Source: a virus. Taken from it: a DNA stretch of 40,495 nucleotides. Made by a program: the position numbers and the translations under genes. The notes below the pieces were generated by a model. It made no database searches. It saw only the letters and a program-made list of their open reading frames with translations, and was not told the origin of the DNA. Shown one piece after another: positions 4,391-39,914 of this stretch (positions are counted from its first letter, which is position 1; every line of letters begins with the position of its first letter). Location: the IMG/VR virus record IMGVR_UViG_3300025012_000176, positions 1 to 40,495 of that record; one strand, written 5' to 3'.

Positions 4391-5779
4391 ATGCAACGAA
4401 TAGAAAAACTTACAAAAAAACAAGAAGTAGCAATGATGTCATATCGAGATATGTGGATTGAAAAAGGACTTCAAACAGGAGAAACAGATTGGGACACTTT
4501 TGATAAATATATGCCTATTTGTTATGAAAAAGCTGGCTTAACTTATCCTAAAAATATTATTAGGGTTAATTCTCCGTTAGTTGGGGGGTTGGCAGCATCT
4601 GTAGCGGAAGCAATTCTAAGAAAAAAACGCGATGCTGTTGACGATGCTGTTGACGATGCTGTTGACGATGCTGTTGACGATGCTGTTGGCGATGCTGTTC
4701 GCGATGCTGTTGGCGGTGCTGTTCGCGGTGCTGTTGGCGATGCTGTTCGCGGTGCTGTTGGCGATGCTGTTGGCGATGCTGTTGGCGATGCTGTTCGCGA
4801 TGCTATTGACGATGCTGTTGGCGGTGCTGTTCGCGGTGCTGTTGGCGATGCTGTTCGCGGTGCTGTTCGCGGTGCTGTTGACGGTGCTGTTCGCGATGCT
4901 ATTGACGATGCTGTTGGCGGTGCTGTTGGCGGTGCTGTTCGCGATGCTATTGACGATGCTGTTGGCGGTGCTGTTGACGATGCTGTTCGCGGTGCTGTTC
5001 GCGGTGCTGTTGACGATGCTGTTCGCGATGCTATTGACGATGCTGTTGGCGGTGCTGTTGACGGTGCTGTTGGCGGTGCTGTTACAACAGCAATTAACAT
5101 TGCAAAAAAAGCAGGAGTTAATTTTAGTTGGCATTATTGGCTGGGCGGTCAATTTTGGGTCGGTGGGTGGTATTGGGGGGTTGCATTTTCTAATTTCTTC
5201 TTCGATATTTGCAAATTGAAATTATCAAAAGACATTATGGACAGAGCACTAGCGTACCGCAAAGTATGCGAATCAGTAAATTATATCTGGCCTAATAGGG
5301 ATTTTGTGATGGTATGTGCTAGACCCACAAAAATAAATCGCGATGAACAAGGGAGACTTCATTCAGAAACAGAAAAATCAATCGAATATCCTGATGGATG
5401 GGGGTTATATCATTTGCATGGGGTAAGATTTGAAAAAGAATGGCTTGATAAGATCGTGAATGACGAAATGACACCCGATGAAATTTTTGCGATTGATAAT
5501 ATCGAACACCGAAGAATTGCTTACGAATACATGGATAAATCAAAAATGCTTCAACTAAAAGATTATAAGATCTTAGACGAACAGCTTGATAGCAAAGGAA
5601 ATATGATGAAAGTGATCTCTTTTACAGTTCAAAACATGGACGAGCCGCTTAAATTCTATAATTGTTTTTGTCCTTCGACAGGCAGGGAATATTTTATAGG
5701 TACGGATAAAAATACTTGCGTAAAAGCAAAGGCGCAATCTTTTGGCTTGGAAGATGTGGAGTTTATTAATGAGTGGTAA
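4391..5779 (+). CDS. DUF6745-like protein with a tetrapeptide repeat region
   Basis: There are three parts. Residues 1-80 are a helical head ending in SPLVGGLAASVAEAIL. Residues 81-231 are about 38 copies of a four-residue unit, (D/G)-A-(V/I)-(D/G/R), encoded by a 12-bp DNA repeat. Residues 232-462 are a C-terminal domain with aromatic WHYWLGGQFWVGGWYW, then YPDGWGLYHLHGVRF and a DEPLKFYNCFCPSTGREYF-type end, resembling DUF6745. I recall xSVx-like repeats in this family, so the repeat is probably a natural spacer or stalk of variable length. Unit changes keep frame, so length can vary by slippage. Function is unknown; its partner is probably the gene at 4053. Long open frames in other frames and on the other strand arise from the repeat. 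Confidence 0.65.
   Translation: MQRIEKLTKKQEVAMMSYRDMWIEKGLQTGETDWDTFDKYMPICYEKAGLTYPKNIIRVNSPLVGGLAASVAEAILRKKRDAVDDAVDDAVDDAVDDAVGDAVRDAVGGAVRGAVGDAVRGAVGDAVGDAVGDAVRDAIDDAVGGAVRGAVGDAVRGAVRGAVDGAVRDAIDDAVGGAVGGAVRDAIDDAVGGAVDDAVRGAVRGAVDDAVRDAIDDAVGGAVDGAVGGAVTTAINIAKKAGVNFSWHYWLGGQFWVGGWYWGVAFSNFFFDICKLKLSKDIMDRALAYRKVCESVNYIWPNRDFVMVCARPTKINRDEQGRLHSETEKSIEYPDGWGLYHLHGVRFEKEWLDKIVNDEMTPDEIFAIDNIEHRRIAYEYMDKSKMLQLKDYKILDEQLDSKGNMMKVISFTVQNMDEPLKFYNCFCPSTGREYFIGTDKNTCVKAKAQSFGLEDVEFINEW
4631..5083 (+). repeat. 12-bp tandem repeat array (about 38 units)
   Basis: Units are variants of GATGCTGTTGAC: 37 full units plus 9 bases. Codons 1 and 4 vary (GAT/GGT; GAC/GGC/CGC), while GCT and GTT are nearly fixed. 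A longer block, with ATT replacing GTT, recurs four times at unequal spacing, so the array grew by duplication of multi-unit segments. The bias for GCT and GTT codons is far stronger than in flanking DNA. Confidence 0.95.
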
Positions 5780-9506: not shown

Positions 9507-9556
9507 TTGAGGAGAGATACAATTCTCTAGCAATACAAACGTCCCAAACTATATAA

Positions 9557-9605
9557 GGAGACTATAGAAAATCGTTAAATCGGTTTTTTGTAGTCTCCTT
9601 TTTTT
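9557..9605 (+). terminator. Leader terminator/attenuator B
   Basis: Outer 8-bp stem GGAGACTA/TAGTCTCC with an inner A/T-rich stem, then seven or more Ts. A small hairpin (9513-9528) precedes it. A transcript from the 9478 promoter ending here would be about 95 nt. Confidence 0.8.
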
Positions 9606-9622
9606 GTTGGTCAAAAACAAAT

Positions 9623-10439: not shown

Positions 10440-10832
10440 ATGGCAGAAAAAAGCTGGATAGAAGAAATGATTGAGTTTGAAGCAACTCCGACAGATTTAA
10501 GAGAAGAAACTGTTACGGCTTTTTGTGAAAACAGGGGAATAAATAGAAGGACATATTACTGGGAGGTGTGTAAGCCTGATATTCAAAAAAGAATATTTGA
10601 ATTATCGCTTAGAGTAGCCAAGAAAGAAACTCCAACAATTCTTCACAACCTTGCGCAAAGAGCGAAAGAATCAGATAGAGCGGCCGAGATTTATTTAGAC
10701 CATGTCCAGCAGTTAGGAAAGAATTTAGATATAAAAACAGATGGAGAATCAATCTCAAACATTAGCCCAGAACAAGCAGAACGAATACTCCGAAGAAGAG
10801 CTGGAATCGCTGAAGGTAGCGGCACAAAATAA
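10440..10832 (+). CDS. terS: Terminase small subunit (putative)
   Basis: A 130-aa helical protein directly upstream of the large terminase. It begins MAEKSWIEEMIEF and has a helix-turn-helix-like stretch (VTAFCENRGINRRTYYWE), then AKKETPTILHNLAQRAKESDRAAEIYLDHV, typical of small terminases that recognise phage DNA and guide it to the motor. I prefer ATG 10440 to an in-frame TTG at 10311, because the extra region is the tRNA-like element. Its last 92 bases overlap the large subunit in another frame. Confidence 0.65.
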   Translation: MAEKSWIEEMIEFEATPTDLREETVTAFCENRGINRRTYYWEVCKPDIQKRIFELSLRVAKKETPTILHNLAQRAKESDRAAEIYLDHVQQLGKNLDIKTDGESISNISPEQAERILRRRAGIAEGSGTK

Positions 10833-12225
10833 CATCATTGATTTTTCCATTTACACGGACGAAAGATACAACCCTAGCTGGCTACATGAAGAAATAGGAA
10901 AGGTTTTGGAATCGGCATACCAAGAGACATTAAAAGGAGAAAAAGTAAGAATCATTTTGGAAGTTCCGCCTAGGCACGGCAAAAGCGAAACCTGTTCAAT
11001 CAAATTCCCGGCTTACGTTTTAGGCAGAAGCCCAGAGTTTCCGATAATGGTTTCGAGTTATTCATCGGACTTAGCCGAAGATTTTGGTTCAAAGACGAGG
11101 GATTTGATGAATAGCGAAGCTTATCAGGCGGTTTTCAAAACTAGACTCAAGCAAGACACGAAAGCCAAGGGGAAATGGATGACTGAATCGAAAGGCGGAT
11201 ATACCTCAACAGGAGTTGGAGGATCAATCACTGGTAAAGGTTTCAAGATTGGGATAATAGACGACCCATTTAAAAACAGAAAAGAAGCTGATAGTAAGCT
11301 GATTAGGGATAACGTGTACGACTGGTATAAATCAACATTTTATACCCGACAAGAGGGCTACGGAGCAATTATCGTGATTATGACGCGCTGGCACAAAGAT
11401 GATTTAGTCGGGAGGTTGCTTAAAAAACAAGAAGCTGATGAGCAAAATCCAGATATTACTGAGTTTGACGCGTGGGAGGTGATTAAATTTCCAGCAATAG
11501 CGATAAACGACGAGCAACACCGCAAAGCAGGAGAGGCGCTATGGAAAGAAAAGTTTAGCTTGCCGATGCTTATGAACACTAAAAATTCCATTGGAAGTTA
11601 CGAATGGTCTGCGCTTTATCAGCAAGAACCGATAGCAAGTGAAAATCAAGAATTTAAAGAAGAGTTTTTCCAATACAGAACCATCGAAGAAGTTTTAGCT
11701 CTGCAAACTTACCGATCGTTGACGATTGACACAGCCATGTCAAAGAATGCCGAAAACGATAACACGGGCTTTTGCATCAATTTTAATGACAGAGAAAACA
11801 AATGGAACATCAAGGCTTGGAAAGAAAGAATCAGTCCGAAAGAACTTATCGACAGGTTATTTTATTTACAGGAAACATGGAATTTGGACGCGATAGGGGT
11901 TGAAGAAACAATATATTTACAGGTTGTGCAACCATTTTTGGAGGATGAAATGAGAAGAAGAAATAAGTTTCTTACCATTACGCCCTTAAAGCACAATGGA
12001 ACGCAAAAAGAATTAAGGATTAGAAGCATTCTGCCAAGATACGAAAGTAAATCGGTTTATCACATCAAAGGACATTGCACTGACCTCGAAGAAGAACAAT
12101 TGGAATTCCCTCAATCTACGCACGACGACGTCTTAGACGCAGAAGCATATCAGACACAAATATCAAAATCATTCCAACCGCAAGAAAGACCAACATACAA
12201 TTTACAACGACCTTCATTTAGATAA
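10741..12225 (+). CDS. terL: Terminase large subunit
   Basis: The ATPase-nuclease that pumps and cuts phage DNA. Walker A is PPRHGKS at about residues 76-82, Walker B IIDDPF near 172-177, and the coupling motif IVIMTRWH near 211-218. The C-terminal RNase H-like nuclease has LTIDTAM (D330), GVEET (E388/389) and HDDVLDA (D462-D466). 494 aa is a normal length. The ATG lies inside the small-subunit gene; there is no later methionine before conserved sequence, so the 92-bp overlap appears real. Confidence 0.95.
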   Translation: MENQSQTLAQNKQNEYSEEELESLKVAAQNNIIDFSIYTDERYNPSWLHEEIGKVLESAYQETLKGEKVRIILEVPPRHGKSETCSIKFPAYVLGRSPEFPIMVSSYSSDLAEDFGSKTRDLMNSEAYQAVFKTRLKQDTKAKGKWMTESKGGYTSTGVGGSITGKGFKIGIIDDPFKNRKEADSKLIRDNVYDWYKSTFYTRQEGYGAIIVIMTRWHKDDLVGRLLKKQEADEQNPDITEFDAWEVIKFPAIAINDEQHRKAGEALWKEKFSLPMLMNTKNSIGSYEWSALYQQEPIASENQEFKEEFFQYRTIEEVLALQTYRSLTIDTAMSKNAENDNTGFCINFNDRENKWNIKAWKERISPKELIDRLFYLQETWNLDAIGVEETIYLQVVQPFLEDEMRRRNKFLTITPLKHNGTQKELRIRSILPRYESKSVYHIKGHCTDLEEEQLEFPQSTHDDVLDAEAYQTQISKSFQPQERPTYNLQRPSFR

Positions 12226-35844: not shown

Positions 35845-35873
35845 TTGACAAAATCAATTAATTATGATATGTT
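35845..35873 (+). promoter_or_regulatory. Promoter of leader unit C
   Basis: TTGACA at 35845-35850, a 17-bp spacer ending TGA, then TATGTT at 35868-35873. It precedes the holin-like genes. A TATAAT at 35875 lies too far from the -35. Confidence 0.75.
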
Positions 35874-35892
35874 CTATAATATACAACCAAAT

Positions 35893-35930
35893 AAAAGAGT
35901 TACGAGTTTTTTAACCGTGGCTCTTTTTTT
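35893..35930 (+). terminator. Leader terminator/attenuator C
   Basis: A 12-bp stem (AAAAGAGTTACG pairs with 35916-35927, two wobbles), then a T-run. The leader from CAAATAAAA to the stem is nearly identical to the one at 8061-8078. The holin-like gene begins 10 bases after it. Confidence 0.8.
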
Positions 35931-36160: not shown

Positions 36161-36415
36161 ATGAGCAAGGCACTAGAAAAACATGCGAGCGATTGCTTCG
36201 CCAACCACATTTCTCCAATGATGAAACAAATTGAAGAAGTAAAAAAAGAAGTTACAGATATTAAAGTTTCAATAGCTGGGCTTCCTAAAGATTTAGCTGA
36301 TGAATTCGACCGAAGATATGCAAGTAAGGAAACGGAAGAAAGCCTAAAAAGAATAATGTGGATAGTTATAGTAGCGGTCATTACCGCAGTTTTGGCGCTA
36401 GTAGTTAGAAAATAG
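36161..36415 (+). CDS. XhlA-like holin-associated protein
   Basis: 84 aa. A long N-terminal amphipathic coiled coil (PMMKQIEEVKKEVTDIKVS) and one C-terminal membrane segment (IMWIVIVAVITAVLALVV) with a basic end. This is the layout of hemolysin XhlA-type proteins that help holins and endolysins. It follows the holin-like gene by 19 bases, consistent with a lysis operon. Confidence 0.65.
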   Translation: MSKALEKHASDCFANHISPMMKQIEEVKKEVTDIKVSIAGLPKDLADEFDRRYASKETEESLKRIMWIVIVAVITAVLALVVRK

Positions 36416-36431
36416 TTCTTTACTTACAATC

Positions 36432-36584
36432 GTTATGGACTGGCTGAGAGAGAGAACACCCAGGGTCGAAGGCGCATATACATGCCGTTGGGGAAGTAAC
36501 GCTGTAACTTATATGGGGACAGCACCAATTAACCTCGTGACTTGTAACGAGATGGATATATGCCTCTCTCAGCCAGTCCATAAC
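36432..36584 (+). ncRNA. 153-nt element closed by a perfect 21-bp stem
   Basis: Positions 36432-36452 are the exact reverse complement of 36564-36584. Next to the right arm, TATATGC (36557-36563) can pair with GCATATA (36474-36480), so the right side of the helix is continuous. Inside are hairpins CTCGT/ACGAG, GCTGT/ACAGC and GG-CAT/ATGCC, and CCCA/TGGG could form a pseudoknot with the GCATATA helix. No target-site duplication flanks it, so I favour a folded RNA over a transposon. It directly precedes a strong Shine-Dalgarno sequence. Not a family I recognise. Confidence 0.7.
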
Positions 36585-36599
36585 AAAAGGAGGTACAAA

Positions 36600-36773
36600 A
36601 TGTTAGTTGCTTATTGCGATAACAAACATTGTCGAAGAACAGAAAAACGTTGTCGTGTGGGGTGCGTCCAAGAAGGGATGGCCTCTCACTGCGCTGTTTG
36701 TGATTTCAACTTTTGTCCGCTGAATTGCGACATCATTTTCATCCCAGTCTTTCTTTGCAGGAGGATATCATGA
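36600..36773 (+). CDS. Cys-rich small protein with strong RBS, 57 aa
   Basis: AAAAGGAGG ends six bases before ATG, a strong Shine-Dalgarno unlike nearly all other genes here. The product is cysteine-rich: YCDNKHCRR, EKRCRVGC, SHCAVCDFNFCPLNC, with a hydrophobic end (IIFIPVFLC). It may bind zinc or be disulfide-linked. Its frame extends into the structured element upstream, but the RBS fixes the start. The stop overlaps the next ATG. Confidence 0.55.
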   Translation: MLVAYCDNKHCRRTEKRCRVGCVQEGMASHCAVCDFNFCPLNCDIIFIPVFLCRRIS

Positions 36774-36882: not shown

Positions 36883-37059
36883 ATGAGCTTGTTCATTAAA
36901 AAATGCAAGCACTGCGAAAAGGTAAAACATTTCCAAGAATGGAAACCCATGCCTGTTGAATTGCAATACGCAATCAACGCTGGCGACATTGCAGTTTCAG
37001 ACGTAGTTTGTGAGCAGTGCTCAAACGGAGCTTCCAATAAGCTCCTACCAGTAGGGTAA
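36883..37059 (+). CDS. Zinc-ribbon-like protein with strong RBS, 58 aa
   Basis: AAAGGAGG lies five bases before ATG 36883. The sequence has CKHCEKV near the start and VCEQCSNG later, a treble-clef or ribbon-like pair, with FQEWKPMPVELQ between. A second site, GGAGG five bases before TTG 36826, would give a 77-aa form, and a 9-codon ATG frame (36833-36859) followed by a small hairpin (36853-36868) lies in the leader. So expression may be regulated by upstream translation. Function unknown. Confidence 0.55.
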   Translation: MSLFIKKCKHCEKVKHFQEWKPMPVELQYAINAGDIAVSDVVCEQCSNGASNKLLPVG

Positions 37060-37276: not shown

Positions 37277-37324
37277 AACTTGCATATCTTGTCTATACCC
37301 TTTCTTGCAAGTTGGGGTATAGAC
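37277..37324 (+). promoter_or_regulatory. Two competing hairpins before the HNH gene
   Basis: AACTTGCA (37277-37284) can pair with TGCAAGTT (37306-37313), and GTCTATACCC (37291-37300) with GGGTATAGAC (37315-37324). The two stems interleave. With a 1-nt third loop both probably cannot form at once, so they look like a switch in the leader of the endonuclease gene, 15 bases before its ATG. Confidence 0.6.
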
Positions 37325-37338
37325 TGGATAAAAATAAA

Positions 37339-37986
37339 ATGATAATAAAAAAATGTGTTTTCTGCAAAAAAGAATTTACATCTGAAAACTGGGAAGGTCA
37401 TGAGGCTAAATATTGTTCTCAAGAATGTTACTTTAATTATAAGAAGACAAGGTTCATTAAAGTGACCTGCGTTATTTGTAAAAAAGAGTTTGAAACCTTT
37501 GCATATAGAAAAGATACTGTGAAATGTTGCTCACGAAGCTGCTTAGGTAGACATGCGGGAAATATAAAATTAGGGAATGTTAAACCAAGAATAAGTTCTC
37601 ACTACTGGTTTATAAAAAAACCAGATTATCACAGAGCAAATAAGCAAGGATACGCAAAGATAGCGGACTTAATCCTTGAAGAAAAACTTGGAAGAAAACT
37701 TGAAAAGAATGAACTGGCCCACCACATTGATGAAAATAAACTTAATGACTCTCCTGAAAATTTAGAAGTAATGACGAACCACGACCATTGTATTCACACC
37801 TCTACTGAGTTTTGGAAAAAACAACGACTCTTTGACTGGAGTTGCAAATATGAAAAATGTATAGATTGTGGAACAACTACAATAAGGCACTGGGCGAATG
37901 GTCGATGCAAAAAGTGTCATGGCAAATTTTATAAATTAAAGAAAAAATATGAAAATAATAGACATAACGCACTTGCTTCCCTTTGA
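37339..37986 (+). CDS. HNH homing endonuclease
   Basis: 215 aa. N-terminal zinc-finger-like repeats (CVFCKKEFTS, CSQECY, CVICKKEFET, CSRSCLG), then the HNH core with AHHIDENKLNDSPENLEVM and a histidine near HDHCIHT. A final pair of cysteine knuckles, CIDCGTTTIRHW and CKKCH, follows. This is the layout of free-standing phage homing endonucleases, which cut DNA and spread between phages. It lies between holin and amidase genes, a common insertion place. Its end overlaps the amidase gene by 38 bases. Confidence 0.85.
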   Translation: MIIKKCVFCKKEFTSENWEGHEAKYCSQECYFNYKKTRFIKVTCVICKKEFETFAYRKDTVKCCSRSCLGRHAGNIKLGNVKPRISSHYWFIKKPDYHRANKQGYAKIADLILEEKLGRKLEKNELAHHIDENKLNDSPENLEVMTNHDHCIHTSTEFWKKQRLFDWSCKYEKCIDCGTTTIRHWANGRCKKCHGKFYKLKKKYENNRHNALASL

Positions 37987-38440
37987 AAAAAGCAATGGGA
38001 CCATGAAAAAAGCTGACATTGTTAATGTTATTGTACATCACGATGGTTCTACTAGACCGCTTTTTTATGATTCCATCAAGCGTTATCAGGCGGAGGCTAG
38101 GTATCATATCTCGAAAGGTTGGTCTCACATCTCGTACACCTATATTTTGGACAACGCAGGCGATATTTTTAAATGTCTGCCAGAAACCGAAGTCGGCTAT
38201 CACTGTGGAAATCTAGTTATTAACCGCAAAAGTATTGCTATCAAATTTGACGGCAATATGCAAACTCAAAAGCTCACCAGCGCGCAAATTAAAGCCTACA
38301 AGGAGCTAATGATTTATCTTACTACCAGAAGACCAGACCTGCCGAAACTGGTCAAGGGAAGCGAATGTGGTCACCGAACTATCAAAGCCACTGCTTGCCC
38401 TGGAAAAAACATTACCGATCAATTTATCCATTCTTTTTAA
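37949..38440 (+). CDS. N-acetylmuramoyl-L-alanine amidase (endolysin)
   Basis: 163 aa, the Amidase_2 (peptidoglycan-recognition-like) fold: IVHHDGS (zinc histidine near 30-31), SYTYILDNAGDIF, YHCGN, SIAIKFDGN, and ECGHRTIKATACPGKN (histidine 142 and cysteine 150, the other zinc ligands). It would cut the amide bond between glycan and peptide at lysis. There is no signal peptide, so it needs the holin-like proteins. Starts inside the HNH gene; the overlap suggests the endonuclease inserted upstream. Confidence 0.88.
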   Translation: MKIIDITHLLPFEKSNGTMKKADIVNVIVHHDGSTRPLFYDSIKRYQAEARYHISKGWSHISYTYILDNAGDIFKCLPETEVGYHCGNLVINRKSIAIKFDGNMQTQKLTSAQIKAYKELMIYLTTRRPDLPKLVKGSECGHRTIKATACPGKNITDQFIHSF

Positions 38441-38487: not shown

Positions 38488-38559
38488 GCCGCCTTAGCTC
38501 AACGGTTGAGCAACTGTTTTGTAAACAGTAGGTTCTCAGTTCAAATCTGAGAGGTGGCT
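38488..38559 (+). tRNA. tRNA-Thr (TGT)
   Basis: Acceptor GCCGCCT/AGGTGGC (one G-T wobble), D-arm GCTC-AACGGTT-GAGC, anticodon arm ACTGT-TTTGTAA-ACAGT with anticodon TGT, T-arm CTCAG-TTCAAAT-CTGAG. 72 nt plus discriminator T. No CCA encoded. It reads ACA codons, common in the AT-rich genome. Confidence 0.95.
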
Positions 38560-38640
38560 CAATTCTTTGAGTGTTTTAGGTACATTATAAAGAATCGTCC
38601 ACTACTTATCTATACTAAGGAATGGATTAAAGTTTTGAAC

Positions 38641-39062: not shown

Positions 39063-39914
39063 ATGGAAAAAATCGCAACATATCTTGAATGGAAAGCTAG
39101 TTATACCACAAGAGCCAGTGTCAATTACGGTATTTGGCTAGGGAAGTATAAACTAATCACGGGAAAAGGAATTGATGACACAACAGTTCACGATGTGCTT
39201 AAATTCCGCAAATGGCTGGACGAACATTACCAGCCCAAATCAATCGAATTTGCCATGATTGTGCTTTCTAATTTTTTCAAATTTTATCGTATGCAAGGAG
39301 TGAAGTGCCTTGACCCATACCTTATCAAAGTCCCGAAAACTAAAGCTAACTCCTACCAAGCAGTATCATCAGAAGAATACGTTTCCATGTTATCATTCAT
39401 TAAGCCTACAACCTTCGTAGAATTTGAAAAGCTTATTGTTCTACGGTTATTGTGGGAAACAGGGATAAGAGTATCGGAACTTTGCTCTATCAACCTCTCC
39501 ATGTTTGACCCTGAAAAAATGAACATGGTCATCAGCACCAAAAAATCGCGGAATGTTAGACAAATATTTTGGTCAGTGGAAACCCACATTTTTTTGAAGG
39601 AATTTATGCGTCTTAGAAGGGAAGTGGACGAAAAACCTCCAATGCTGATAGGCCTTAAAAACGGAAGGCCGCCCAGCAGGATAACCCCAAGAACGGTGCA
39701 AAGGTGGATTCAGGAGCTCGCCAAGAAGGCAAAAATCGAAAAAAAGATAAGTCCACATTCATTCAGGCATGGAAAGGCGCATAAAATTCTTGACCAAGGC
39801 GGAAACCCGAAAGACGTGCAGGCGATTCTCGGACATTCAAACCCAGCTTCAAGTTTTACTTACTTGCAGTGGAACGACAAAGAATTTGAAAGAAGGGCTA
39901 TGATGTTTGTGTAG
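39063..39914 (+). CDS. int: Tyrosine recombinase / integrase
   Basis: 283 aa. An N-terminal core-binding domain (about 1-95, with SVNYGIWLGKYK and VLKFRKWLDEHY) and a catalytic domain: R136 in WETGIRVSEL, K near 160, PHSFRHGKAH (H232, R235), LGHSNP (H258), and nucleophile Y267 in FTYLQW. The set is complete. It would catalyse phage integration, or resolve multimers as XerC/D-like enzymes do. Nearby tRNA genes are phage-encoded; no attP core is evident without the host sequence. Preceded by a hairpin leader. Confidence 0.9.
   Translation: MEKIATYLEWKASYTTRASVNYGIWLGKYKLITGKGIDDTTVHDVLKFRKWLDEHYQPKSIEFAMIVLSNFFKFYRMQGVKCLDPYLIKVPKTKANSYQAVSSEEYVSMLSFIKPTTFVEFEKLIVLRLLWETGIRVSELCSINLSMFDPEKMNMVISTKKSRNVRQIFWSVETHIFLKEFMRLRREVDEKPPMLIGLKNGRPPSRITPRTVQRWIQELAKKAKIEKKISPHSFRHGKAHKILDQGGNPKDVQAILGHSNPASSFTYLQWNDKEFERRAMMFV

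Follow-up and report, generated by a model that had tools for sequence, protein, structure and literature searches.

What is a perfect 21-bp inverted repeat doing in the gap between two late genes of an uncultured phage? The locus lies in the virus record IMGVR_UViG_3300025012_000176, of which we analyzed positions 1 to 40,495 (the window, 40,495 nt). The window derives from a tailed phage, with a terminase large subunit at 10741-12225 and, in its late part, an amidase at 37949-38440. A repeat search of the window returned a left arm, GTTATGGACTGGCTGAGAGAG, at 36432-36452 (+) and a right arm, CTCTCTCAGCCAGTCCATAAC, at 36564-36584 (+), which together bound an element of 153 nt. The first-pass annotation had described these arms as exact reverse complements, and this holds: the 21 nt of each are joined by Watson-Crick pairs throughout, and the pairing stops at 21 bp with zero outward extension. 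The window contains no second perfect inverted repeat of at least 12 bp whose arms lie within 400 nt, and the runner-up measures 10 bp (span limit 200 nt). By simple arithmetic, the chance expectation for a 21-bp pair is about 40,495 x 1000 / 4^21 = 1e-5. The repeat is real and far beyond chance. Comparison DNA totalling 2.3 Mb, drawn from loci of related phages and prophages, has most of its perfect pairs (at least 20 bp, span up to about 600 nt) in repeat arrays, with two single pairs outside such arrays.

The element fits closely into its intergenic gap. Upstream is a gene of 84 aa (36161-36415, +) with a weak match to phrog_6324, of unknown function, whose product appears by inspection to combine a coiled coil with a C-terminal membrane helix. 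Downstream is a small Cys-rich ORF of 57 aa (36600-36773, +) for which no relatives were found, followed by a second small Cys-rich ORF of 58 aa with a strong Shine-Dalgarno (SD) sequence (36883-37059, +). The stop codon at 36413-36415 and the ATG at 36600 are separated by 184 nt, and the element takes up 153 of these; without it the flanking genes would be 31 nt apart. Just 3 nt separate the right arm from the AGGAGG of the downstream ORF (36588-36593, +), in agreement with the earlier claim that the element stands directly 5' of a gene with a strong ribosome-binding site (SD region AAAAGGAGGTACAAAATG, 36585-36602).

Folded as RNA, the whole element reaches -64.8 kcal/mol versus -38.4 +/- 3.9 for shuffled sequences (z -6.8). 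This value comes from the closing stem alone, because the 111-nt interior (36453-36563, +) folds no better than its shuffles: its z is -0.01 on the + strand, where 47% of shuffles fold equally well, and -0.42 on the - strand. The first-pass annotation had filled the interior with hairpins, a feature for which folding shows no excess over shuffles on either strand. Three weak hairpins are predicted (36459-36492, 36501-36523, and 36534-36551), the best of them with 5-bp stems. A further helix of 7 bp proposed to adjoin the right arm, GCATATA at 36474-36480 with TATATGC at 36557-36563 (+), is indeed present in the sequence but is not significant, as chance alone would give about 0.4 such 7-mers over 111 nt; forcing it yields a fold 1.8 kcal/mol worse than the optimum. 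A pseudoknot can also be drawn, between the loop of a GGC/GCC hairpin (36474-36483) and 36557-36563, without support of its own. The stem does not have the U-tract immediately behind it that defines an intrinsic terminator, the next bases being AAAAGGAGG on the + strand and GATTGTAAG on the - strand. Frame 0 runs stop-free across the interior on both strands, and its coding score of 0.16 is low but within the range of real genes (5th to 25th percentile of true genes, 0.08-0.23). In 10% of cases a shuffled interior has some frame that reaches this score, and there are zero protein relatives; we rejected a coding reading of the interior.

As the folding signal resides wholly in the duplex, it is simplest to suppose that the duplex itself acts. 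We therefore favor, with a probability of roughly one in three, a cis-acting stem-loop in the polycistronic late (lysis-region) mRNA of the phage, which would serve in RNase III-type processing or in protection of a 5' end. We infer transcription of the element, its cleavage or protective action, and any effect on translation. In this scheme, the 21 base pairs, which make up roughly two turns of A-form helix, would set a border between two genes that lie close together, either for processing of the message or for its stability. The stem might be cut by a nuclease specific for double strands, for instance the RNase III of the host, or it might block an exonuclease and so protect the message downstream. 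The stem could also keep the pyrimidine-rich right arm (GCCUCUCUC) off the SD. The exact fit of the element between the stop codon and the SD, on the coding strand, counts for such a role, as do the strong stem-loops in other intergenic gaps, both here and in a relative, G004, whose late region carries paired hairpins.

An RNase III site requires a duplex of about two helical turns, and 21 exact pairs supply that length. The element resembles the RNase III hairpins of T7 and lambda mRNAs in being a long duplex in an intergenic stretch of a polycistronic phage message, just before an SD. It differs from them in placing 21 exact pairs around 111 nt, while in the known phage sites the hairpins are shorter, pair imperfectly, and have small loops, and by its sequence it is a candidate site. 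RNase III targets are established in the RNAs of lambda, T7, and T3, as is the exposure of a ribosome-binding site through RNase III cleavage in adhE and lambda cIII (PMC5371410).

The predicted consequences for the SD are small and vary with the context folded, which counts against this reading, as does the failure to find any homologue in which the stem is conserved. With the left arm present in a context of 361 nt, the SD bases are mostly unpaired in folding (0.66-0.97). When the 5' end is instead moved into 36453-36564, the SD becomes largely paired (unpaired values mostly 0.07-0.2) at an opening cost of about 2-2.7 kcal/mol; in the absence of the left arm, the partner that can cover it is GCCUCUC of the right arm. 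Across the contexts folded, opening the SD costs from 0.3 to 2.8 kcal/mol. Masking of the SD by the left flank was also considered as a special property and was set aside, as shuffled upstream flanks mask it equally in 78% of cases.

The element is an orphan, and nothing newer is established than an unusually exact intergenic inverted repeat. The 153 bases are probably a stem-loop of a transcript and do not prove a new class of RNA. Should the element act as a signal for processing or stability, it would mark the way in which a little-known group of tailed phages divides up its late message, a useful but ordinary result.

An orphan structured RNA, whether riboswitch, ribozyme-like element, or small RNA, is the first alternative, and we consider it unlikely. 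The first-pass annotation had put forward a new structured regulatory RNA or a ribozyme-like element. Here, the 111-nt core would be held by tertiary contacts or a pseudoknot and closed by the stem. The long terminal stem, the three possible hairpins, and the possible loop-to-strand pseudoknot are what such an RNA could look like, the intergenic site ahead of an SD is suitable, and pseudoknotted RNAs are often missed by single-sequence energies. Against this stand an interior z of 0.0, a 7-bp helix at chance level, zero Rfam matches, and zero homologues by BLAST, covariance model, or pattern. The Infernal/Rfam search that had been suggested as a check gave, at the Rfam 15 gathering cut-off, only a tRNA in the whole window, and a relaxed scan of 36380-36640 gave mir-4677 alone (E 3.8). 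Comparison by eye with hairpin, hammerhead, and TPP motifs found nothing convincing in the element.

The search for relatives was negative at every level covered, in a searched set that excludes the records nearest the window, so that close relatives may exist. BLASTN of the element and of its interior against phages and plasmids gave short chance matches only, and local blastn and nhmmer over the related loci found no homologue. A single-sequence covariance model, which reaches moderately diverged homologues only, matched nothing in 50 records related through the terminase (TerL), in 4 genomes, or in 380 genomes of one phylum, that of the host of one related prophage. The neighboring proteins (amidase, Cys-rich ORF, and membrane ORF) used as baits drew zero relatives. 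An exact scan for the right arm across 2.9 million viral contigs gave zero matches. A two-arm scan of these 2.9 million contigs with a variable spacer gave a single match, which lies in a duplicated coding gene, has no covariance-model match, and was dismissed as chance.

Several known RNAs share the outline of the element. Retron ncRNAs (msr-msd, with a1/a2) likewise have terminal inverted repeats, which pair into a long stem that closes off about 100 nt, but the element lacks a strong inner msd hairpin, and none of the 63 ORFs of the window matched a reverse transcriptase (Pfam, PADLOC), which excludes a retron within the window. In bacterial Y RNAs and the phi29 pRNA, the two ends also form a long stem with hairpins inside; the element differs from these in having no Rfam match and no matched Ro60-type or other partner gene.

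A conserved RNA stem has no need to be as tidy as these 21 bp, which include neither a G-U pair nor a mismatch, and such exactness also suits an origin at the DNA level or a very recent one. Readings of this kind fit the exactness of the arms better than an mRNA stem-loop does. Two of them share the same low standing, somewhat below that of a structured RNA. One is a MITE-like element, small, mobile, and non-autonomous, whose terminal inverted repeats would be the 21-bp arms; the first-pass annotation had also envisaged a mobile element of this non-autonomous kind. MITEs and other TIR elements are similarly short units with exact terminal repeats and no gene inside, and a discrete 153-bp unit with an unstructured interior, set in what would otherwise be a 31-nt gap, is in keeping with them. 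The copies that such an element should leave were not found: there is one copy in the genome, the exact arm is absent from the 2.9 million viral contigs, the lone two-arm match is a chance one in coding DNA, and the 380 genomes of the one phylum that hosts a related prophage have zero covariance-model matches. The window contains no match to a transposase or serine invertase. Nor is a target duplication seen in the sequence adjoining the arms, where there is no direct repeat; a TA duplication could hide within the arms (GT[TA]TGG ... CCA[TA]AC), in the style of IS630/mariner-type elements, with none adjacent.

The other, which we judge just as improbable, is a recent and functionless inverted duplication of 21 bp produced by template switching during replication. 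It would account for the exact identity of the arms, the unstructured interior, and the absent homologues. It would also make the stop-codon-to-SD fit a coincidence, and comparable perfect pairs are rare in the 2.3 Mb of comparison DNA, with the two outside repeat arrays.

Less probable than either is a bolder reading, in which the element would be a small phage RNA of a new class, its core of about 111 nt folded as a pseudoknot and its 21-bp stem the place where a nuclease would cut it from the late mRNA. In a stranger variant, the element would be an in-frame invertible segment that offers two alternative N-terminal parts for the Cys-rich protein; this variant is the less likely of the two. 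Were the element either a folded RNA or a coding segment that inverts, the locus would hold a new regulatory device.

Lower still we place an inverton proper, in which a site-specific recombinase would flip the 111-bp interior between the repeats. The anatomy of invertons is defined by repeats of 10-40 nt flanking a segment (PMC11892184), and the element, with 21-bp exact arms, 111 bp between them, and a gene immediately 3', shares this arrangement. A tyrosine integrase (39063-39914) is encoded 2.5 kb away. A frame of 112 aa (36435-36773) crosses the element, continues into the Cys-rich ORF, and is open too if the element is flipped. Because this ORF, in frame 0, is open in both orientations, a flip would swap 37 codons; shuffling gives P 0.025 for a frame open both ways, a test chosen post hoc. 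Against an inverton, the ORF starting at 36435 has no SD, the arms lack an internal dyad of the kind bound by many recombinases, the best promoter-like pair in the element scores 7 of 12, and no relative was found in the other orientation. The dyad and the internal promoter, neither of which is seen here, are common and not universal among invertons.

An assembly artefact, in which metagenome assembly joined sequence via a shared 21-mer in inverted orientation, is very improbable: at 21 nt the arms have the length of a k-mer that assemblers commonly use, and the record is from an uncultured virus, but the flanks and interior read smoothly into the SD and the contig has no other such repeat.

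The nearest relatives of the terminase are uncultured viral contigs (42-59% identity), together with contigs in MAGs that include Ignavibacteriae, Paceibacterota, and Shapirobacteria; a Patescibacteria host is possible. A complete tRNA-Thr(TGT) at 38488-38560 (+) lies beside the tyrosine integrase (39063-39914, +) and is a candidate attachment site or a phage-borne tRNA.

Other parts of the window carry structured features of their own. At 37277-37324 (+), 5' of an HNH gene at 37339, interleaved inverted repeats (AACTTGCA / TGCAAGTT and GTCTATACCC / GGGTATAGAC) could form alternative hairpins or an H-type pseudoknot, and the 10-bp hairpin alone has a z of -6.2. A relaxed Rfam match to rli49 on the opposite strand of this region (31 of 40 bits) looks compositional. 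Ahead of the lysis genes, the stretch 35845-35930 (+) holds a promoter-like TTGACA-17-TATGTT with TG (10 of 12), and within about 20 nt behind it a hairpin that resembles a terminator and has a T7 tract, which makes an antitermination-controlled late promoter possible. A long terminator-like stem-loop, AAGGAGACTA...TAGTCTCCTT followed by a T-tract, occupies 9555-9607 (+) in a gap of 150 nt. Finally, the ORF at 4391-5779 (+) encodes long tandem four-residue repeats of the form D-A-V-(G/D/R) (DAVDDAVGDAVR...) in its N-terminal half.
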